Below, one piece after another: positions 1 through 29,696 of a DNA stretch of 34,119 nt. Origin of the DNA: Candidatus Giovannonibacteria bacterium (GTDB lineage: Bacteria > Patescibacteriota > Minisyncoccia > JACPKW01 > UBA11713); contig JACPKW010000003.1 of assembly GCA_016186825.1 (NCBI GenBank), positions 1 through 34,119 of the forward strand. Reading direction: 5' to 3'. Position 1 is the first letter of the stretch; every line of letters starts with the position of its first letter. The translations under genes were made by a program, and so were the position numbers. The notes below the pieces were generated by a model. The model was given only the letters and a program-made list of their open reading frames with translations. It searched no databases and was not told the DNA's origin.

Positions 1-90
1 TTTGGTGAAGACATTTAAAACTTTATCGGCTTCTCCCGTATCAAAGTAGCTCAAAATTATTCCTTCAGTTTGGTATAGCCCGTTTGCCAT
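1..90 (-). CDS. recO: DNA repair protein RecO, N-terminal part only (runs off the window)
   Basis: Thirty codons read leftward from an ATG at position 90 to the window edge. The peptide begins MANGLYQTEGIILSYFDTGE and continues ADKVLNVFTK. This matches the start of RecO, whose OB-fold opens with a T-E-G-I-V-L stretch followed by a G-E-x-D motif and an L-x-x-F-T-K/R strand. RecO loads RecA onto SSB-coated single strands in the RecFOR pathway. No Shine-Dalgarno is visible; a TAAAAT hexamer (101-106, minus) lies 10 nt before the ATG, so the message may have almost no leader. The rest of the gene is outside the window, so completeness cannot be judged. The upstream zinc-ribbon gene ends 55 bp away. 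Confidence 0.8.
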   Translation of the reverse strand, partial: MANGLYQTEGIILSYFDTGEADKVLNVFTK

Positions 91-145: not shown

Positions 146-1855
146 TTAAATGACTTCATTTTGATAACATTTTTTGCAGTAAACAATCGGGGCTTCTTCT
201 TTGGTGTATTTCGTCTGGAAAGTGGCGCCGCATTTATCGCAGATCCGCTCAATCAAGCGCAGATTTCTCACCCAGATATTAAATTTCTCCTGAATTCGGC
301 AGAAGGGGCATTGTCGCGGTAGTGGCAGATTCCTTTCGCGCAGGAATTTCAATTCCATCGGAATTACTCGAAAGCCTCGCTCGCATTTATTGCACCCGAT
401 TACTTCATCCAGAATCGAATCCGGTGCATCCTTGATATGATCCGGCAAATTCTCTGCCGGAATTGTCACACTATAAGTTTTTATCTCCGGCTCCTTCCAT
501 TTGTATCCATTTGCTTCAACTTCTTCTTTCGACATCGGGAAAAAGTTTGAGGCAATTGTTTCGTTATACGCAAAAGGAGAAAGCTCAATCGGGAAAAACT
601 CGCCGTATTTATATATTCTTCCTTTTTTATCCACGTACGGCATCTCACTCATATGTTGGATTATTTTTAGGCGTAATTTCTCGTATTCTTCTTTTTCATA
701 TCGTTTATTTAAAATAATATAATCGCCTTTTTTTACGGAAACACAGCCAAAATGATTAGAACCTCCTGTAGAAAGCTTGCAATATTCAGCGTTTACAAGC
801 CCTAAGCCTGATTCGTTGCAAAATTTTAATCCACTTGCCTGTTCGCCAACATTAGAACACTCATATGATAACGATAAATTATCTCCCCAACTTGATATGT
901 CATAACAATCTTTAATTGGGGGATTTGGCATTAGAAACAAAAATTTACTATCTTCAGCTCCGACAACTTCAAAACATTGTTGACAATTTTTTGATTGAAA
1001 AAAATGGCTGCCTGAAGAATTGACCGACATCTCCTCCTCCACTGGCTTAGGCGGAAATAATTTCCAATGATCCTCTGCTAATTTCTGAATTTCCTTATAT
1101 GTTTTAAACGATCCAAGATTCCATTTCTTTATTTCTTCAAAATATTTTTCTCCGGAATAGGGCTTATTAAAAATGTGGAATTTTTTATTTCTTAAGTTTG
1201 CAGATGCAAAACAATTTTGACAATTGAATGAATCCTTTAAAAAGAAGCAGTCAATGCAATTTACGACTTGGCTTCTGCTCCCGACGCAGCGGCTGTCTTT
1301 ATATGAATGCATAGAATCATAGCAAAGCTCACAAGATATTATTGCAGAAGAATCCAAAATTTCATTGCAATGATCAACGTAAAAACCGTAAGCCGAATTT
1401 TCCGTATACCCCGCATGAAAAAGGAGATATGAACTTTTAATATCGCCAGCATGATTATTCCAGGGAGACGTCTTCATGGTTTGGATGTCTATGGATAACC
1501 CTAAAAGGGGAACTTTATGCCAAAGTTCTTGGAATTGCTCAAAAAATGGGCGTGAGAAATCATAATCTCTCCCGTAATCAAACCCGCTCCACTCATCAGA
1601 CCACCAACATGGGGGGCAGTACACTGCATACGGAGAATCCGGCGCATACATAGAGATCGTTTCTTGCTTACAAAGATCACATTTTCTTTGATACAAATTA
1701 AAAATATTAAAAAAAGCGAGCCTTCGCTGCAAACGGCACTCCGGACAAAAAGTCGGCGGGGGGACTTGTATCTTTTCGTAAAATTTAAAATCCGAAGCGT
1801 CTATTTCAAATTCGCATTTGCAATTCTGACAGGCTCGTTTTTCAGAATTAGCCAT
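146..1855 (-). CDS. Cys-rich protein with zinc-ribbon pairs at both ends (family copy 1)
   Basis: A 569-aa protein with no assigned function. The N-terminus has two zinc-ribbon-like units: C9-x2-C12 with C37-x2-C40, and C59-x2-C62 with C80-x2-C83. The last 80 residues repeat the same layout in the same order (C-x2-C, then CPFCR, then CDKCG, then VYCKKCY), so the protein is capped by two copies of one module. Between them lies a Cys/Asn/Ser/Tyr-rich region of about 330 residues with short irregular repeats, suggesting a solenoid. Twice this reaches a conserved F/I-N-K-x-Y segment followed by a charged helix (residues near 230 and 385). There is no signal peptide or membrane segment. A paralogue lies at 17828-19615, and a 5' fragment of a third member sits directly upstream. 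I recall similar CPR proteins carrying the unconvincing label CaiB/BaiF. No SD precedes the ATG. Zinc binding is inferred from Cys spacing; any role in nucleic-acid or protein binding is a guess. Confidence 0.75.
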   Translation of the reverse strand: MANSEKRACQNCKCEFEIDASDFKFYEKIQVPPPTFCPECRLQRRLAFFNIFNLYQRKCDLCKQETISMYAPDSPYAVYCPPCWWSDEWSGFDYGRDYDFSRPFFEQFQELWHKVPLLGLSIDIQTMKTSPWNNHAGDIKSSYLLFHAGYTENSAYGFYVDHCNEILDSSAIISCELCYDSMHSYKDSRCVGSRSQVVNCIDCFFLKDSFNCQNCFASANLRNKKFHIFNKPYSGEKYFEEIKKWNLGSFKTYKEIQKLAEDHWKLFPPKPVEEEMSVNSSGSHFFQSKNCQQCFEVVGAEDSKFLFLMPNPPIKDCYDISSWGDNLSLSYECSNVGEQASGLKFCNESGLGLVNAEYCKLSTGGSNHFGCVSVKKGDYIILNKRYEKEEYEKLRLKIIQHMSEMPYVDKKGRIYKYGEFFPIELSPFAYNETIASNFFPMSKEEVEANGYKWKEPEIKTYSVTIPAENLPDHIKDAPDSILDEVIGCNKCERGFRVIPMELKFLRERNLPLPRQCPFCRIQEKFNIWVRNLRLIERICDKCGATFQTKYTKEEAPIVYCKKCYQNEVI

Positions 1856-1859
1856 ATAT

Positions 1860-1970
1860 TTAATTTAGAGCAAGCGAAGTCCAGCACCAAGCTTTGCTTT
1901 GGTGCTGTGGCTCCGGCTCAATCGTGAACTCTTTTTTACAGTTTTGGCAAATTTTTTGCTCCTCTGGCAT
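1860..1970 (-). pseudogene. 5' fragment of a third zinc-ribbon family member
   Basis: A 36-codon reading frame starts with ATG at 1968-1970, one base after the ileS stop, and ends with TAA at 1860-1862. Its first 20 residues, MPEEQKICQNCKKEFTIEPE, match the start of the protein at 17828-19615 (MSPQTKICQNCKNQFTIEPE). The DNA is also close, for example TGCCAAAACTGTAAAAA in both. Homology stops abruptly after codon 20; the remaining 16 codons run through a hairpin (1882-1907) and resemble nothing in the family. It is less like the gene immediately downstream than like the distant copy. I read it as the remnant of a member cut down by recombination or insertion. It could still be translated as a one-knuckle peptide. 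Confidence 0.6.
1882..1907. repeat. Perfect 9-bp inverted repeat (hairpin)
   Basis: CAGCACCAA (1882-1890) and TTGGTGCTG (1899-1907) are exact reverse complements separated by 8 nt. The hairpin lies where homology of the zinc-ribbon fragment ends, between ileS and the next gene. There is no T-tract on either side, so it is more likely a small palindromic insert than an intrinsic terminator. Confidence 0.6.
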
Positions 1971-1971
1971 T

Positions 1972-4900
1972 TTATTTTTCTATCCCGATTTGCATTTGAG
2001 AATCATCAAGTTTTATTTCTTTCTGACTCCCAGCCTTGCCGGAAAATTTAAGTTCGGAAATGTTGATTTCTTTTTTTATAAGCGCGGAATTTTTTTTGAG
2101 AATTTTTTCAATTTCTTTCGGGGCATTTACCGAGAGCATAACTTTATCCTGCGGCTTCAATTTGAGTTCCTTACGGAAATCCTGAACTTGCCTGATAAAT
2201 TCGCGCACAATCCCTTCTTCTTTGAGATCTGCGGTAATTTCCGTATTCAATTCAAAATCTTTTTCCAGTGTTTTATCGAATACAATCTTTTTGACGTTAA
2301 TTTCTCCCAAAATAAGTTCAACAAGTTCTTTACTTATTTCCTCCCCCTTAACTTTCAACATCGAAAGAGGCTGGCGGATTTTTATTCCCGCTTTCTGCCG
2401 CTCTTCCAAGCCACGCGACACAATCTCTCGGACTTTTCTCATATCCTCCAGAAGTTTATGGTTTATTTTTTTTAGTTCATAGTTCGGAAAATCTTCCAAG
2501 TGCACACTTTCCACCTTCCCTTCAAGCCCGTGATAAATTATCTCCGCGCTAAAAGGAATATACGGCGCCAATACCTTTGAGAGTTCCAACAATAAACGAC
2601 CAAAAACTTCCGAGCACTCTTTCGCCTCGCTTGAATTTTCCTTCATGTAAGAACGGATGCGCCTGATATGCCAGTGCGAAATATCATCAATTATAAAATT
2701 TTCGACCGTCCTCGCCGCTGAAACAACGTCATACTTATCGAGATTCTCTGTAATCTCGCTTAAAACTTTATTCCATTTCGCCAAAACCCATTTATTGATT
2801 ACTAATTTGGGGTTCATTAATTTTTCATTTTGATTTTTAAATTTTGAATTTACATTATATGTCTTCCAATACAAAAACGAGTTCCAGAGAATCATAAAAA
2901 ATCTTCTTTGAGCATCGCGGACATCTTCTTCTTTAAAAAGCTTCGGATCCCAGGGCTGATTGATTGTAAAAAAATACCAGCGCACCGGATCCGCTCCGTA
3001 TTTTTCCATCAAAGCCATTGGATCGACAATATTGCCGAGTGATTTGGACATCTTCTTTCCGTTTTTATCCAAAAGATGCCCTAAAGAAATAACATTCTTA
3101 TAAGGAGCTTTAAAACCCAAAAGTGTCCCCACGGCGAGGAGATTATAAAACCACCCGCGTGTTTGATCTACCGCTTCAACAATGTAATCTGCGGGGTATG
3201 GAAGTTTTTTCTTAGGCTTGCCTGGAGCGAAGTCGAAAGGCCAGTTCTCTGATGCAAACGGCATCGCACCAGAATCAAACCAGACGTCCACAACTTCCAA
3301 AACGCGCCGCATCTCGCCCCCGCACCCGCCAGCAGACGGATCACATTTCAATTGGATTTCATCAATATACGGCTTATGCAAATCGAGCTCGCCTTCATTA
3401 TTGTATGGCCAGTTGTGAAAACGAATCTTGTTAAATTGATTTGGATAAAAAGCGCGAGCTCCTTTTTCGTAATCTTTTTCAGAAAGGGCATCATGCGCGC
3501 CAAAAAAGACAAAAGCTGGTACGCCATGGGTTAAAATTAAAATCTTTTTCCCGCGATGCTTCCTCACAATTTCCAAAACGGCTTTCATGACCCGCGCGCG
3601 CACTTCTCTGTAATTTTCCGCACCTTCAGGTTTTTTATAAAAGTGTTCTTCAAAACTTGAAAATCTGCTATTGAATCCGCCTTGTCCATCAAACGCTGGA
3701 CCAACTAATTGATCATAGAGTTCCGGAATAATTTCAATATTAGAAACCCCGATTTCTTTTCCCACAATTTCTGCGGTTTGTTTTGCCCGAAGTGATGGAG
3801 ATGAAATAATCACTTCAATTTTTTCTTTTTTTAGTTTTTTCGCCGATTCTTGGGCGTCTTTTCTCCCTTTAGCAGTCAAGAAAGCGGCGGAGTCGGTTTC
3901 CGGAGATACCGCCCAGGTATCAGAAATATTATGCACAGCTTCGGCATGCCGCATGACAATAAGATCCGTGGGATTCGGATCTAACGCATCCATCTCCGAA
4001 AGAGACCCTGGAACTTTTATAGATTTGCACTTCTCGCATCTCCAAACCGGCAACGGAGTCCCCCAATAGCGTTCGCGCGAAAACGCCCAGTTTTTCTTTT
4101 CTTTCAGCCATTCGCCGAAGCGCCCGTCCTTAATGTGCTCGGGATGCCAATTGATCTCCTGATTATTTTTTATCAACTCTTCGCGCCTCGCATTAACATC
4201 CACCCACCAGGCCTTTCTCACAAAGTACATCAACGGATTTTTACAACGCCAGCAAAACGGATAATCATGTTCGTATTTTTCTTTTTTATAAAGCAGCGCG
4301 CGCGCGCTTAAATCTTCCATAATCATAGAATCGGCTTTTTTGAACCATGTTTTATCCCACGCATTTTTCGGAGTTTGCATAAGCCCGTCTGCATCTGTTG
4401 TGATAAGGACGGGCAAATCATCTTTTTTTGAAATTTGAAAATCGTCTTCACCAAAAGCCGGCGCAATATGGACAATCCCCGAACCGTCTTGTGTCGAAAC
4501 GAAACCGCCAAGTACTGCGTGATACGGCGCGGAGTTCGGATATAAACTTTCATATTCAACGCCCTCAAAACTCGCTCCCTTAGCGCGATTGATAATTTTA
4601 TACGGCCCGTCGAGAACGCTAAGCCGCGCTTCAGCCAAAATCAGCCATTCCTCGGGATATTTTTCGAGTTCAACCGTGACGTATTCAGTTTCTGGATTCA
4701 GCGCAAGCGCGACATTTCCAGGGAGCGTCCAAGGAGTAGTTGTCCAAACCAAAAAATAGGCACGTTTCCTGCCTTTTTCTTCCCCTTTCAACTGAAATTT
4801 AATATAAACGGAATCTTCTTTTATCTTTTCATATCCCTGCGCAAGCTCATGGGAGGAAAGCGCCGTCCCGCAGCGCGCGCACCACGGAACTACCTTGTAA

Positions 4901-5475
4901 TCTTCGTAAAGCAGTTTGCTGACTGAAAAATTTTTTATAATCGCCCATAGCGATTCAATATAAGAATTTTCATAGGTGATATAGGGGTGTTCCATATCAA
5001 TCCAAAAACCCATGCGATCTGTCAGCTTTTCCCAAAGTTCTTTGTATTCCCAAACGGACTGGCGGCATTTTTTGTTAAATTCGGCGATGCCGTATTTTTC
5101 AATATCTTTTTTGCTTTTGAGTCCGAGTTTTTTTTCGACTTCAACTTCTACGGGAAGCCCGTGCGTGTCCCAACCGGCTCGGCGCGGCACGTGAAAACCG
5201 CGCATAGTTTTATAGCGAAGAATAATATCTTTGAATGACCGCGCCTCAACGTGGTGCGTGCCAGGCATGCCGTTTGCAGTTGGGGGTCCTTCAAAAAACG
5301 CAAAGCGTTTTTTGCCCTGAGCTTGCCGAAGGGCAACCGACTTTTCAAAAATATTATTTTCTTTCCAAAACAAAAGAATCTCCTCTTCAGCCCGAGGAGA
5401 CAACTCACTGTATTTAAATTTATCCGTTTTTGCGGACACGCCTGCCTTTTCGACAGGGCCTTTCTCATCGGCCAT
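1972..5475 (-). CDS. ileS: Isoleucyl-tRNA synthetase (IleRS2 type) with inserted histidine-phosphatase domain
   Basis: A 1167-aa class I synthetase charging tRNA-Ile. The catalytic core has PPTANG and the signature GTHH (residues 72-75) in place of HIGH, an editing (CP1) domain at about 200-390, KMSKS at 808-812, and the WFDSGAMPF and DQTRGWFY blocks. The end is the usual helical anticodon-binding region. The DLHKPYID segment marks the eukaryote-like IleRS2 branch. Between the two halves of the zinc-binding insert (CEKCK near 480 and CGG near 718) sits an extra domain of about 190 residues, roughly 503-690. It has a phosphoglycerate-mutase-like start (LIVMRHAE, catalytic His at 510), ISSPSLRAKQTA, and a second His in LTHG (648-651). 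That is a histidine phosphatase fold; activity is unproven. The N-terminal linker and the core also carry short palindromic inserts. There is no SD before the ATG. The zinc-ribbon fragment starts one base past the stop. Confidence 0.97.
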   Translation of the reverse strand: MADEKGPVEKAGVSAKTDKFKYSELSPRAEEEILLFWKENNIFEKSVALRQAQGKKRFAFFEGPPTANGMPGTHHVEARSFKDIILRYKTMRGFHVPRRAGWDTHGLPVEVEVEKKLGLKSKKDIEKYGIAEFNKKCRQSVWEYKELWEKLTDRMGFWIDMEHPYITYENSYIESLWAIIKNFSVSKLLYEDYKVVPWCARCGTALSSHELAQGYEKIKEDSVYIKFQLKGEEKGRKRAYFLVWTTTPWTLPGNVALALNPETEYVTVELEKYPEEWLILAEARLSVLDGPYKIINRAKGASFEGVEYESLYPNSAPYHAVLGGFVSTQDGSGIVHIAPAFGEDDFQISKKDDLPVLITTDADGLMQTPKNAWDKTWFKKADSMIMEDLSARALLYKKEKYEHDYPFCWRCKNPLMYFVRKAWWVDVNARREELIKNNQEINWHPEHIKDGRFGEWLKEKKNWAFSRERYWGTPLPVWRCEKCKSIKVPGSLSEMDALDPNPTDLIVMRHAEAVHNISDTWAVSPETDSAAFLTAKGRKDAQESAKKLKKEKIEVIISSPSLRAKQTAEIVGKEIGVSNIEIIPELYDQLVGPAFDGQGGFNSRFSSFEEHFYKKPEGAENYREVRARVMKAVLEIVRKHRGKKILILTHGVPAFVFFGAHDALSEKDYEKGARAFYPNQFNKIRFHNWPYNNEGELDLHKPYIDEIQLKCDPSAGGCGGEMRRVLEVVDVWFDSGAMPFASENWPFDFAPGKPKKKLPYPADYIVEAVDQTRGWFYNLLAVGTLLGFKAPYKNVISLGHLLDKNGKKMSKSLGNIVDPMALMEKYGADPVRWYFFTINQPWDPKLFKEEDVRDAQRRFFMILWNSFLYWKTYNVNSKFKNQNEKLMNPKLVINKWVLAKWNKVLSEITENLDKYDVVSAARTVENFIIDDISHWHIRRIRSYMKENSSEAKECSEVFGRLLLELSKVLAPYIPFSAEIIYHGLEGKVESVHLEDFPNYELKKINHKLLEDMRKVREIVSRGLEERQKAGIKIRQPLSMLKVKGEEISKELVELILGEINVKKIVFDKTLEKDFELNTEITADLKEEGIVREFIRQVQDFRKELKLKPQDKVMLSVNAPKEIEKILKKNSALIKKEINISELKFSGKAGSQKEIKLDDSQMQIGIEK
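3220..3241. repeat. Short palindromic insert within ileS
   Basis: GCCT at 3220-3223 and AGGC at 3238-3241 bracket GGAGCGAAGTCGAA. This resembles the widespread repeat of the form CCCTGAGC-x-GTCGAAGGG. It encodes FDFAPGK in a place where other IleRS proteins have variable sequence, so it looks like an in-frame insertion. Confidence 0.45.
5312..5336. repeat. Palindromic repeat inserted in frame near the ileS 5' end
   Basis: TTGCCCT (5312-5318) and AGGGCAA (5330-5336) are exact reverse complements around an 11-nt loop, GAGCTTGCCGA. It encodes the LRQAQGK stretch just before the conserved FFEGPPTANG block. A weaker relative (GCCTTTTCGACAGGGC) lies at 5444-5459 in the first codons of the same gene. 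Confidence 0.6.
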
Positions 5476-6407: not shown

Positions 6408-6473
6408 AAACTAGGTTACAAAGAACATAGAATATAGTATGTCGAAGTTAAAAATAATACAACTTGAATAAAG

Positions 6474-6501
6474 TTGAATTCGTAGTTGAATTTTTTATGA
6501 T
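6474..6501 (+). promoter_or_regulatory. Candidate sigma-70-type promoter of murI
   Basis: TTGAAT (6474-6479) and TATGAT (6496-6501) are separated by 16 nt. Transcription would start near 6508, only a few bases before the murI ATG at 6512. The message would then be leaderless or nearly so, which fits the absence of an SD. Confidence 0.5.
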
Positions 6502-6511
6502 ATATTGGCTT

Positions 6512-7312
6512 ATGATTGGAGTTTTTGATTCGGGATATGGCGGGCTTACGGTATTTCGCGAGCTCGATAAGAAATTTCCAAAATACGATTTAATTTACTT
6601 CGGCGACAACTCCCGCGCGCCTTACGGTTCTCGCTCTCCGGAAACAATCTACGAATACACGTGCGAAGCGGTTGATTGGCTTTTTCGAAACGGATGCCAA
6701 CTTGTTATTTTGGCATGTAATACAGCATCCGCTGTTGCGCTTCGAAAAATCCAACAGGAATATTTGTCTGAAAACTTCTCCGAAAAACGTGTGCTTGGAG
6801 TTTTAATTCCGATTGCTGAAGAAATTGCACAAACAAACGGGAAGGAAACAATCGGCATTTTGGCTACTCCGGCCACAGTGGAATCCGGCGCTTATATTCG
6901 TGAAATAAAAAAAATCGATCCAGACGCAAACATTGTTCAAGCCGCCGCACCCTTGCTCGTTCCCATTATCGAGAGTGGTATGATATATCATAACAGTACA
7001 AAAGACATTATCAGAACCTATCTCGAGCCGTTAAAAAAAGAAAACATAAAAAATCTTGTTCTTGGATGCACACATTATCCCTTTATTAAACATTTAATCC
7101 AGGCAGAAATGCCGGATGCGAAAATTTTTGATTCGCCCTCAATAATTCCCGCATCGCTCGAAAATTATTTATCACGCCATCCGGAAATTGAAAATAAATT
7201 AACAACAAAACGCCAGAGGTGCTACATCACGACTGGCGATCCAAAAAGATTTTCAGAATTTGCAAAAAAATTTATTGGTCTAGAAATTTACGCAGAAAAG
7301 TTGTCCAAATAG
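6512..7312 (+). CDS. murI: Glutamate racemase
   Basis: Converts L-glutamate to D-glutamate for peptidoglycan. The frame opens further upstream at TTG 6464, but the family start IGVFDSGYGGLT follows the ATG at 6512, giving 266 aa, the normal size. Catalytic features are D-S-G at the N-terminus, YFGDNSRAPYG, the first catalytic Cys in LACNTASAVALR and the second in LGCTHYP. Stand-alone plus-strand gene between two minus-strand genes; its stop codon begins a hairpin. It indicates that this organism makes a D-Glu-containing wall. Confidence 0.95.
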   Translation: MIGVFDSGYGGLTVFRELDKKFPKYDLIYFGDNSRAPYGSRSPETIYEYTCEAVDWLFRNGCQLVILACNTASAVALRKIQQEYLSENFSEKRVLGVLIPIAEEIAQTNGKETIGILATPATVESGAYIREIKKIDPDANIVQAAAPLLVPIIESGMIYHNSTKDIIRTYLEPLKKENIKNLVLGCTHYPFIKHLIQAEMPDAKIFDSPSIIPASLENYLSRHPEIENKLTTKRQRCYITTGDPKRFSEFAKKFIGLEIYAEKLSK

Positions 7313-11047: not shown

Positions 11048-11494
11048 ATGGGTGTTCTGCTCGAAAACAAAAAAGCATATTTCAATTATGAAATACTCGA
11101 AAAATATGAGGCTGGTTTGGAATTGTTAGGACTTGAAGTAAAATCGCTCAAGCAAAAACACGGAAACATTGCGGGCGCGCGCGCAATCATAAGAAGTGGC
11201 GAGGCATATCTTGTCGGAATGGACATACCGCCTTATCAGCCGAATAACACGCCGAAAGATTACGAACGGGAGCGCACGCGAAAACTTTTATTGCATAAAG
11301 ATGAAATTTCTCGTTTGGCAGGGCGCGCGGAAGAACGCGGGTTGACTGTGATCGCAACTAAGGTGTATACTCTCGGCGGCAGAATAAAAGTTGAAATCGC
11401 GGTCGTTCGCGGAAAAAAGAAATTTGAAAAAAGAGATAAAATAAAAAAGCGCGACATCGAAAGAGAAATCGGAAAAACTTTAAAACGGGGATGA
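11048..11494 (+). CDS. smpB: SsrA-binding protein SmpB
   Basis: 148 aa, normal length. It binds tmRNA and guides it into stalled ribosomes for trans-translation. The OB-fold blocks N-K-K-A-Y-F-N-Y-E-I, GLELLGLEVKSL, the HGNIAGARA region and the PYQPNN motif are clear, followed by the basic tail rich in KKK and KKR that enters the mRNA channel. The stop TGA (11492-11494) lies inside the first 8 nt of the tmRNA gene, so the partner RNA is cut from the same transcript or made from an internal promoter. The likely promoter gives an almost leaderless message. Confidence 0.97.
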   Translation: MGVLLENKKAYFNYEILEKYEAGLELLGLEVKSLKQKHGNIAGARAIIRSGEAYLVGMDIPPYQPNNTPKDYERERTRKLLLHKDEISRLAGRAEERGLTVIATKVYTLGGRIKVEIAVVRGKKKFEKRDKIKKRDIEREIGKTLKRG

Positions 11495-11812
11495 TCGGCC
11501 TCGAGAGGAAATGGAAAAGCTCGTGTTCAGGCGGAGGATGCAGAACCACTCCTTAAACTCCTGCAAAACACATAAGTGCAAACTTATTCGGAAAGACGTT
11601 GGAACCTGCTTACGCAGTAGCCTAATGTCTCTTCCCGCGTAATGCGGGACATCCTTCCTTCTGATTCTCGCTGGGAAGAGCGGGGTGTCATACAAGCGAG
11701 ACCAAAATTGGAAACGCCTTGGCCAATTTTGCGATAAAGAGGCAACAAATTTAAGCCTGTCAACCACTGCTTGGAAATTTTCTCCACGCGGGTTCAATTC
11801 CCGCCATCTCCA
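11487..11812 (+). ncRNA. ssrA: Transfer-messenger RNA (tmRNA), with encoded tag
   Basis: The 5' end GGGGATG (11487-11493) pairs with CATCTCC (11805-11811), using one G-U as in Escherichia coli. The T arm is GCGGG-TTCAATT-CCCGC and A11812 is the discriminator. CCA is not encoded. The resume codon is GCA at 11578-11580, and the frame reads ANLFGKTLEPAYAVA then TAA (11623-11625). The tag ends AVA, not the usual AA. The remaining 180 nt should form the pseudoknots. Together with SmpB it rescues stalled ribosomes and tags the product for proteolysis. The gene begins within the smpB stop region. Its last 19 nt are repeated at 11987-12005. Confidence 0.93.
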
Positions 11813-12005
11813 CAAATACAAAAAATCAGCCTGCGCAAGCGGGCGATTTTTGTTTGTGGAGATGAGCGAGCAAACTGCTTTGCTCGCGCGCGGAATTGAA
11901 AGCCGGAGCGTTGTCGCGCGAGCGCGCGCGACCGCGAGGCAGGGTCGAGAAAATTTGCGAGCGGCGGCGAGCAAATTATTCGTGACCAATTCCCGCCATC
12001 TCCAC
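11795..12005. repeat. Direct repeat of the tmRNA 3' end (attachment-site-like)
   Basis: CAATTCCCGCCATCTCCAC occurs at 11795-11813 (in ssrA) and again at 11987-12005, 192 bp apart. Duplication of a tmRNA 3' end is the usual footprint of an integrative element. The stretch between (11856-12005) is much richer in G and C than its surroundings, with runs of CGCG. It is closed by GTGGAGATG/CATCTCCAC and contains a perfect 9-bp hairpin (11866-11874 with 11879-11887). No open reading frame or integrase is present, so it is a remnant, a miniature element or a structured RNA. Positions 12006-12046 show nothing further. Confidence 0.55.
11821..11851 (+). terminator. Intrinsic terminator after tmRNA
   Basis: AAAAATC (11821-11827) pairs with GATTTTT (11845-11851), with GCC/GGC inside and a T-rich end. 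Because the following TTTGTGGAGATG (11853-11864) is the reverse complement of the tmRNA end CATCTCCACAAA, the whole of 11805-11864 can also fold into one larger hairpin. Confidence 0.65.
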
Positions 12006-17765: not shown

Positions 17766-17829
17766 GTCCCTACATCAATTTTCTTTCGCCATTTTTTGGT
17801 GGGCGAAAACTGATGTAGGGACTTTTTTT
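17766..17829 (+). terminator. Strong intrinsic terminator on the plus strand without an obvious gene
   Basis: GTCCCTACATCA (17766-17777) and TGATGTAGGGAC (17811-17822) pair perfectly, with TTTCGCC/GGCGAAA inside (17784-17790, 17802-17808), followed by seven T at 17823-17829. On the minus strand, where the zinc-ribbon gene ends at 17828, no U-tract follows. It is therefore directed at plus-strand transcripts. The stretch 17665-17765 shows no reading frame. Confidence 0.75.
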
Positions 17830-19615
17830 AAACTACTTCAGTGAGATAACACTCCTCGCAATAAACTATTTCAGGGCGATCCGGGGCGTATGTTGTTTCG
17901 AATTCATTAGTACAAGGATTTGCGCCATGCTCATGGGTAATTGTGTTTTGATAAACTCCATTTGAAGAGATATCCCCCGCGCATTGGCAAGTTCTTTCCC
18001 AGAGTTTCAAAGGACTACGGTGTTGAAGTCTTTGATAATGACGGCAATTTGGGCAAAGCCGAGGCAGTGCGATATTTTGATTCCTCAAAAAATCCAATTC
18101 TTGAGAAATAATGCGGAAGGCTTCGGTGCAGTTCTCGTTACAGTCGCCCTTATGTTCGCATTCAATAATTTCGTCCAAAATCGAATCTTTGACATCTTTT
18201 ATATGATCGGGAATATGTTCACTTTTTAGGGTGGTCCGGTAATCCCTTGCTTTTGGCTCTCTCCATGAAAGTCCTCTGATCAAAGCTTCATCTTTTAATA
18301 AAGGAAAGGTATCGTGCGCTGTCGTTTCATTATAGCCAAAAGGGCTTAATTCAGAGGGAAAAAACTCGCCATATTTGTAGATTCTGCCAAGTTTATCTAC
18401 ATAGGGATTTCGATTCATTTCACTAATAATTTTCGCCTTAATATTTTCATATTCCTCTTTTGTGTATTGTTTATTTAAAATACAAAATTCTTTATTTCTC
18501 AAGCCGACAGAGCCAAAAATATTTTTACTCCAGACTACAAATTGACAATATTCTATATCCTGACAGCTGCGGGCCACGAACCAGGAAAAACGGATACGAG
18601 ATATCATATCTCCCGCCTGCATCGCTTCGTATACCAATTCGCAGTTTTCTCCGTAGTGCGTAAAATCATAACAATCAGTCACTTTAGGGACAGTTATCAG
18701 GGAACAATATCGGGAATTTTCTGTATCCGTAACAATAAAAGAATCTTTAACATTTTTCGAATTGTAAATATAGTCACCCGAGACATTAAAGTTTCTGCGC
18801 TCATGAAAATACTTATTTGGAAATTTATTCCAGAAAGAAAAACCCTCATTGCCAAGCTTCGTTAAACTTTCATAAGAGCTTTTTAAATATTTTTGTGCTA
18901 ATTGCTGGTATTCTTCCTTAGAATATTGTTTGTTAAAAATACAATATTTTTTATTTCTTAGATTTACGCAGCCGATTAAATCGGAGCACCCAATGCAGTT
19001 TTTAGAAAAAGTGACATTAAGGCAAGATTCGCAATCAAGCGAATAAAATACCCTATTACAATCACGACAGTTGACCGCTTCATAACATAGTTCACTATTT
19101 ACCAGCATCATGTTGTCTATGCTATCTTTGCATCTGTCAATACCACTTCCATAGGAGCAGTTTTCACTATGATCACTGTTTGTTATGAGATAACAATTTT
19201 TCAAATAGCCGACCATGTTGGTATAGTCCGAATTTTCAAGAGTGCTATAATAGCCAAAAAGATTCATAACTGGAACTCTCTGGAAAAGATCATGTAGTTG
19301 AACCAAAAACGGTTTGCTCGGATCATACTCAAAGCCGTAACTCATTGCATCCCAGTCGTCAGACCACCAACAAGGACTACAGTAAACTGTTGCTCCACAG
19401 TCATTATGAAAAACGGATATGATATTTTTTCCGCATTTATCACAACTCCTCTGGTATAGATATTTTTCATTCCTCCACGCAAGACGTCTGATCAATCTAC
19501 ATTCGGGACAAAACGTCGGCGGAGGGACTGACATTTTTTCATAAAATTTAAAATCCTCCGGTTCGATCGTGAACTGGTTTTTACAGTTTTGGCAGATTTT
19601 TGTTTGAGGACTCAT
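17828..19615 (-). CDS. Cys-rich protein with zinc-ribbon pairs at both ends (family copy 2)
   Basis: 595 aa, paralogue of the protein at 146-1855. The N-terminal ribbons (ICQNC, FCPECR, CDKCG, VYCSPCWW) and C-terminal ones (LCPNCR, CQCAG, VYCEECY) frame a Cys-rich middle. Two blocks end in LRNKKYCIFNKQYSKEEY-like segments, each followed by a charged helix, and PYVDKLGRIYKYGEFFP is shared by both copies. The C-terminal module has an insert of about 20 residues (TITHEHGANPC). The start chosen is the ATG at 19615, preceded by GGAG at 7-8 nt; a TTG at 19630 is also open but lies before the SD. A perfect 20-bp palindrome precedes the gene. Zinc binding is inferred; the function is unknown. Confidence 0.78.
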   Translation of the reverse strand: MSPQTKICQNCKNQFTIEPEDFKFYEKMSVPPPTFCPECRLIRRLAWRNEKYLYQRSCDKCGKNIISVFHNDCGATVYCSPCWWSDDWDAMSYGFEYDPSKPFLVQLHDLFQRVPVMNLFGYYSTLENSDYTNMVGYLKNCYLITNSDHSENCSYGSGIDRCKDSIDNMMLVNSELCYEAVNCRDCNRVFYSLDCESCLNVTFSKNCIGCSDLIGCVNLRNKKYCIFNKQYSKEEYQQLAQKYLKSSYESLTKLGNEGFSFWNKFPNKYFHERRNFNVSGDYIYNSKNVKDSFIVTDTENSRYCSLITVPKVTDCYDFTHYGENCELVYEAMQAGDMISRIRFSWFVARSCQDIEYCQFVVWSKNIFGSVGLRNKEFCILNKQYTKEEYENIKAKIISEMNRNPYVDKLGRIYKYGEFFPSELSPFGYNETTAHDTFPLLKDEALIRGLSWREPKARDYRTTLKSEHIPDHIKDVKDSILDEIIECEHKGDCNENCTEAFRIISQELDFLRNQNIALPRLCPNCRHYQRLQHRSPLKLWERTCQCAGDISSNGVYQNTITHEHGANPCTNEFETTYAPDRPEIVYCEECYLTEVV

Positions 19616-19644
19616 ATTTTTACTCCACAAGTTTCATGTTTTAC

Positions 19645-19664
19645 AGGTATGATATATCATACCT
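19645..19664. promoter_or_regulatory. Perfect 20-bp palindrome upstream of zinc-ribbon copy 2 (operator candidate)
   Basis: AGGTATGATATATCATACCT is its own reverse complement. It lies 29 bp before the ATG at 19615 and 9 bp after the stop of the UDG gene, contains TATGAT, and has no T-tract. It looks like a site for a dimeric repressor overlapping a promoter. Confidence 0.5.
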
Positions 19665-29682: not shown

Positions 29683-29696
29683 TAGAAAATTATACC

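Follow-up and report, generated by a model that had tools for sequence, protein, structure and literature searches.

What purpose is served by a family of cysteine-rich proteins that carries the same pair of putative zinc units at either end and is retained in many copies in a small genome? We addressed this for two full members, P0001 and P0002, encoded in a stretch of 34,119 nucleotides (hereafter the window) from Candidatus Giovannonibacteria bacterium (GenBank assembly GCA_016186825.1, contig JACPKW010000003.1). The original prediction, made from the letters of the window, had singled these two out as one family; this proved real, with corrections, and open reading frame translation places both on the minus strand at the coordinates it gave. 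It could name no function for them, and the linkage to a VirD4-type ATPase reported here now offers a testable one: at about even confidence, we propose that a dedicated VirD4-type ATPase, part of the type IV secretion apparatus of Patescibacteria, handles the family as a variable-core repertoire of substrates or adaptors, and that the zinc ends form the constant handle.

Domain architecture of the family

The proteins of this family, which are predicted to be cytosolic, are characterized by a common layout: A-B, solenoid, solenoid, linker, A-B. Here A and B denote two cysteine units with the patterns CxxC...CPxCR and C(xx)C...YCxxC, respectively, which probably bind zinc. In the two window members the layout is distributed as follows:

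146-1855, minus strand: P0001, family member of 569 amino acids, in the conserved ileS-recO slot; relatives 70-73% identical in genomes G001, G003 and G005
1706-1855, minus strand: P0001 N-terminal zinc unit A, C9xxC12 ... C37PEC40R, treble-clef-like
1592-1705, minus strand: P0001 N-terminal zinc unit B, C59xxC62 ... YC80xxC83
1121-1507, minus strand: P0001 solenoid half 1 (AlphaFold2 model, low confidence here; hhalign of the two halves), terminal block IFNKPY at 1163-1174
674-1054, minus strand: P0001 solenoid half 2 (AlphaFold2 model, hhalign), terminal block ILNKRY at 704-715
266-418, minus strand: P0001 C-terminal zinc unit A, C488xxC491 ... C516PFC519R
149-265, minus strand: P0001 C-terminal zinc unit B, C539xxC542 ... 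YC560xxC563
17828-19615, minus strand: P0002, family member of 595 amino acids, flanked by a uracil-DNA-glycosylase-like gene and a PolX-like gene
19337-19615, minus strand: P0002 N-terminal zinc pair A+B
18410-19267, minus strand: P0002 solenoid halves (two), blocks IFNKQY and ILNKQY
17831-18184, minus strand: P0002 C-terminal zinc pair A+B

Far from being unrelated, the two ends are homologous: the N-terminal (1-116) and C-terminal (478-595) zinc pairs of P0002 align with an hhalign probability of 99.4 (E 1e-21, 84 columns). Both units align in the same order at the two termini; hence, the end modules are direct repeats, and of the "mirrored end modules" first described the shared pair and its order stand while the mirror symmetry does not. 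All of 67 relatives keep the cysteines C8, C11, C36, C39, C486, C496, C521, C524, C543, C568, C586 and C589 (P0002 numbering).

Unit A resembles zf_Tbcl (PF13451) and unit B zf_Tbcl_2 (PF23477/TIGR04272), both probable treble-clef zinc fingers. No family model matches P0001 or P0002 above its own cut-off: with zf_Tbcl P0002 scores 14.2 bits (gathering cut-off 24 bits), and with zf_Tbcl_2 P0001 scores 14.5 bits (cut-off 27 bits). Across the family, 26 of the 67 members match zf_Tbcl at E up to 0.1 and others reach E 2.3e-6 with zf_Tbcl_2; the zf_Tbcl ligand pattern CxxC ... CPxCR is present, with four cysteines per unit A invariant in the 67 sequences and a hairpin-helix pattern in the AlphaFold2 models. 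What sets the family apart from these domains is the pairing of A with B and the placing of the pair at either end of a solenoid. A sub-threshold match of P0002 to eIF-6 is probably spurious.

The middle is, as predicted, rich in Cys, Asn and Ser (5-6%, 7-10% and 10-12%, against 0.5, 3.6 and 5.9% in seven neighbouring proteins). The solenoid-like character and the two F/I-N-K-x-Y blocks seen initially are likewise borne out: the middle is built from a homologous pair of halves, both closing with an (I/F)(L/F)NK-x-Y block (hhalign probability 99.9, E 1.3e-35), and is mostly beta structure in the AlphaFold2 models, whose mean predicted local distance difference test (pLDDT) scores are 87.6 for P0001 and 88.2 for P0002, lower in solenoid 1. 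Its best structural matches are beta-solenoids, namely the phi29 gp12 appendage, the YadA-type head of AtaA and the GlmU/LpxA left-handed beta-helix; these are weak (Z 5-7 over 83-133 residues, with solenoid 1 partly of low confidence). The family shares no sequence similarity with them, has a helical block between its two short solenoids, and lacks their trimeric or enzyme context. A Foldseek search of BFVD returned zinc-finger and generic beta-solenoid matches only. Searches of the window proteins against Pfam, NCBIfam, PDB sequences, PHROGs and PADLOC yielded no function, and literature searches found no published description of the family.

Association with a VirD4-type ATPase

The link to the ATPase came from a survey of all recurrent neighbours of family loci and was afterwards tested on 383 genomes of the class and on other classes. 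When the neighbours at 124 sampled loci were clustered, a VirD4/TraG-like ATPase ranked first (23 loci), frequently in the gene order sigma-like gene, MemA, MemB, VirD4, member(s). In the genome of the window (G000; 756 kb in 7 contigs, of which contig C5 reads as N) a member lies 39 bp from such an ATPase on contig C2 (C2:1305-2771). This protein scores over the Pfam cut-offs for TrwB_AAD_bind (41.6 against 20.5 bits), T4SS-DNA_transf (20.6 against 20.1) and TraG-D_C (22.5 against 22), and the MemA and MemB proteins beside it carry hydrophobic segments.

VirD4 homologues in general were found in 36 of 36 relatives tested, and MemA homologues in 35 of 36. The particular ATPase subtype, defined as at least 68% identical to C2:1305-2771, occurs in 43 of the 49 carriers of the family and in 5 of the 334 non-carriers among the 383 class genomes (Fisher P 1e-44, uncorrected for phylogeny). 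As shared ancestry inflates this P value, we place more weight on independent adjacency: a member lies within 5 kb of the subtype in 26 of the 43 genomes, against about 2 expected (generally three members per genome scored), and in at least one further class, at a family identity of 35-39%, tandem arrays of members adjoin MemA-VirD4 or VirD4 in 8 of 20 loci. We regard the link between family and ATPase as well supported.

A repertoire recognised via its ends would fit the constant zinc ends, the variable core, the high copy number, the exchange of members between slots and the dedicated ATPase. The conserved zinc ends would be the constant handle on which the machinery docks, the C-terminal pair being a candidate VirD4 recognition signal, and the variable solenoid would be the part in which members differ in binding. 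We prefer the version in which members are substrates that would be exported or translocated towards a host or neighbouring cell; alternatively, they may be adaptors bringing cargo to the ATPase. The repertoire would be renewed as fixed slots change their occupants and as gene conversion acts on the 3' end. More tentatively, such ultra-small epibionts might possess a recombining repertoire of zinc-capped, variable-core proteins delivered to their hosts by a dedicated VirD4 branch of the type IV secretion system, with the slots as variant-exchanging cassettes, in analogy to effector or antigen repertoires.

A comparable logic is seen in the XVIPCD effectors of the Xanthomonadaceae type IV secretion system (PMC6759196, PMC11253643), which are likewise multicopy, combine a constant region with a variable part, and are tied to a VirD4-type ATPase. 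Our family differs in having constant modules at both ends, a central variable part and no enzyme domain found; the likeness is to how such repertoires work. Patescibacteria rely on other cells and very commonly carry VirD4 homologues: PMC12102498 counts 5,713 in 2,918 patescibacterial genomes, only 148 of them near virB4, and leaves open an exapted role for them. The ATPase of the system described there is a VirD4/TrwB homologue, and the window's own genome has a divergent VirB4 homologue; in our loci, however, VirD4 stands with MemA, MemB and the family rather than with virB4, and the passages of that paper drawn on here name no substrates. Our literature searches found no report of what patescibacterial VirD4 homologues handle. 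With its many copies and its tie to a single ATPase subtype, the family supplies concrete candidates, as possible missing cargo or cargo adaptors.

Several observations weigh against this proposal. Six carriers lack the ATPase subtype (some of these metagenome-assembled genomes, or MAGs, are incomplete), and the five genomes noted above have the subtype without the family; adjacency to VirD4 is lacking for many members, P0001 and P0002 among them. The family proteins showed neither a toxin or enzyme domain nor a known secretion signal. Unlike classical VirD4 proteins, the ATPase at C2:1305-2771 has no N-terminal membrane segment visible in its sequence; given this, it may be a non-secretory, DNA-translocase-like enzyme.

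The strongest alternative, which we consider unlikely if far from negligible, makes the family DNA-handling accessories: the zinc fingers would bind DNA or RNA, a VirD4/HerA-like ATPase would move nucleic acid in uptake, transfer or segregation, and the members would be non-exported specificity factors. Treble clefs often bind nucleic acids, and the ATPases of the VirD4, TrwB and HerA kind, to which the Pfam matches point, move DNA. Moreover, one VirD4 paralogue beside family genes (L118:6836-8995) itself ends in a zf_Tbcl_2/CxxC-x17-CxxC unit (54 bits) of the same type as unit B. The middle, however, is weakly beta-solenoid-like rather than a nucleic-acid-binding fold, and relaxases are reported (PMC12102498) to be missing from most patescibacterial type IV secretion clusters.

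It is improbable that the members are intracellular scaffold or metal-handling proteins whose ATPase linkage is a by-product of shared genomic neighbourhoods. No signal peptide is evident in their sequence, they are rich in cysteine, and their loci are dispersed next to housekeeping genes; against this, the adjacency to VirD4 recurs beyond the class, at the low family identity given above. CutA1, found beside a few family loci, was treated as a coincidence.

Copy number, slots and homogenised 3' ends

The three loci within 20 kb initially reported are a window effect, the true count in the genome being higher: it holds at least seven members plus fragments. The prediction that a small genome retains many copies holds, and this highly reduced genome devotes about 2% of its length to one recombining family. 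Carriers make up 49 of the 383 sampled class genomes (about 13%), with 1 to 27 candidates each and a median near 9 by a first-look proxy; scoring generally covered only three candidates per genome, and where it covered all, first-look and scored numbers agree closely. The repeats of the family break assemblies, so that draft genomes probably understate its copy number.

In a phylum sample, 32 of 379 genomes are carriers, many beyond the class, with members there mostly 31-39% identical and tandem arrays of up to nine. The best 80 of 486 relatives in a GTDB genome scan all come from Patescibacteria or from MAGs whose title is generic, and the family is apparently restricted to Patescibacteria. 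A phage, plasmid or viral origin was rejected, as homologues are wanting in those collections: there was one marginal zinc-finger match among phages, none among plasmids and one partial viral contig.

The local duplication proposed for the two full members was not supported. P0001 and P0002 are 42% identical, and the closest relatives of P0001 (70-73%) belong to other genera and occupy a different site on the chromosome; this rejects a simple local tandem duplication, and the two belong to an old repertoire dispersed over the whole genome. The middles of paralogues are 33-36% identical (median) and the end modules more conserved, while orthologue groups across genera keep 60-84% identity in the middle.

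Members occupy conserved slots whose occupants differ between genera: ileS-recO, pgk-nuclease, gat/ligA, and the position beside VirD4. The window contributes the following features to these slots:

1-90, minus strand: recO, gene start only (remainder on contig C1), downstream flank of the P0001 slot
1860-1970, minus strand: 5' remnant of another family member, 20 family codons followed by an unrelated tract and a stop
1883-1906, no strand: palindromic tract AGCACCAAAGCAAAGCTTGGTGCT, between the remnant and P0001
1972-5475, minus strand: ileS, upstream flank of the P0001 slot; the order ileS-member-recO recurs in G003, G004 and G005
29683-29696, no strand: empty slot between pgk and a nuclease-like gene

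The order ileS-member-recO is kept in G000 and these three genomes, whose occupants are only 39-40% identical to P0001; its closer relatives in G001, G003 and G005 sit in another slot, near gat/ligA genes. One orthologue group has been relocated. The pgk-nuclease slot, empty in the window, is filled by a member in G003, G004 and G005. Five related genomes have a VirD4-type ATPase 82-85% identical to that of G000, and the members next to it often share only 30-38% identity in their middles. The third, broken copy of the original prediction is indeed a broken family member, reduced in extent to a 20-codon 5' remnant: its ATG lies 1 base past the ileS stop, the family codons run into the palindromic tract and a stop codon, and 46 bp match the start of P0002 at 89% identity. 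No second copy of the tract was found in the genome. A short 5' remnant likewise precedes the present ileS-recO occupant in G005 (a scar after ileS, L083).

A common 3' block with 98-100% DNA identity, starting each time at one and the same codon (TACTGC, Y-C of YCILNRQYTKEEY), is found in four members of the genome, whereas the 108 bp directly upstream are 37-55% identical. In homogenised tails generally, DNA identity is 95-100%, including most third positions, against 37-61% upstream. G001 shows the same with a sequence of its own, and G002 and G005 less sharply. For class-1 tails the nearest neighbour is in the own genome in 10 of 16 cases (P 0.0002), and for middles in 0 of 16. Five contig ends of the genome fall within family genes, and some contigs have exactly 141, 121 or 91 bases in common at their ends, as de Bruijn assemblers leave at true repeats. 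A contig-end artefact was rejected as the source of the shared tails: identical tails also occur inside contigs (G005 C20/C8b, 159 bp), and hence the repeat is real. The natural reading of near-identical 3' blocks abutting unrelated middles is gene conversion or recombination. Separately, one family copy (L017, G000:C3:106354-107893) has a frame change and a deletion of about 70 codons right at a contig end, possibly an assembly artefact.

That the family is kept mainly by its own mobility or by gene conversion, each copy having little function, would suit the patchy distribution, high copy number, slot turnover, remnants and relocated group, but is still less probable than the scaffold explanation, as frames are mostly intact in about ten copies, ligand cysteines are invariant, orthologue middles are conserved across genera as given above, co-occurrence is specific to one ATPase subtype, and no transposase was found among the recurrent neighbours of family loci.

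Further features of the window

Upstream of P0002, at 19639-19663, lies a perfect 18 bp palindrome, GGTATGATATATCATACC, a possible operator, with a near-repeat at 6977-7001 within the gene at 6464-7312. Immediately after P0002, at about 17770-17830, is a long inverted repeat, GTCCCTACATCA ... TTGATGTAGGGAC, that is terminator-like or resembles repetitive extragenic palindromic elements. The ileS gene has a histidine-phosphatase domain inserted in the middle of its catalytic region (3367-3975; PF00300, 87.9 bits, residues 505-654, LIVMRHAEA). Two short in-frame stretches of ileS, LRQAQGK (5311-5331) and FAPGKPKKK (3205-3231), resemble small palindromic-element insertions, and a motif in the tail of a G002 family gene, CTTCGACAAGCTCAGG, resembles them. 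A transfer-messenger RNA gene is located at 11487-11813, with the tag ANLFGKTLEPAYAVA.
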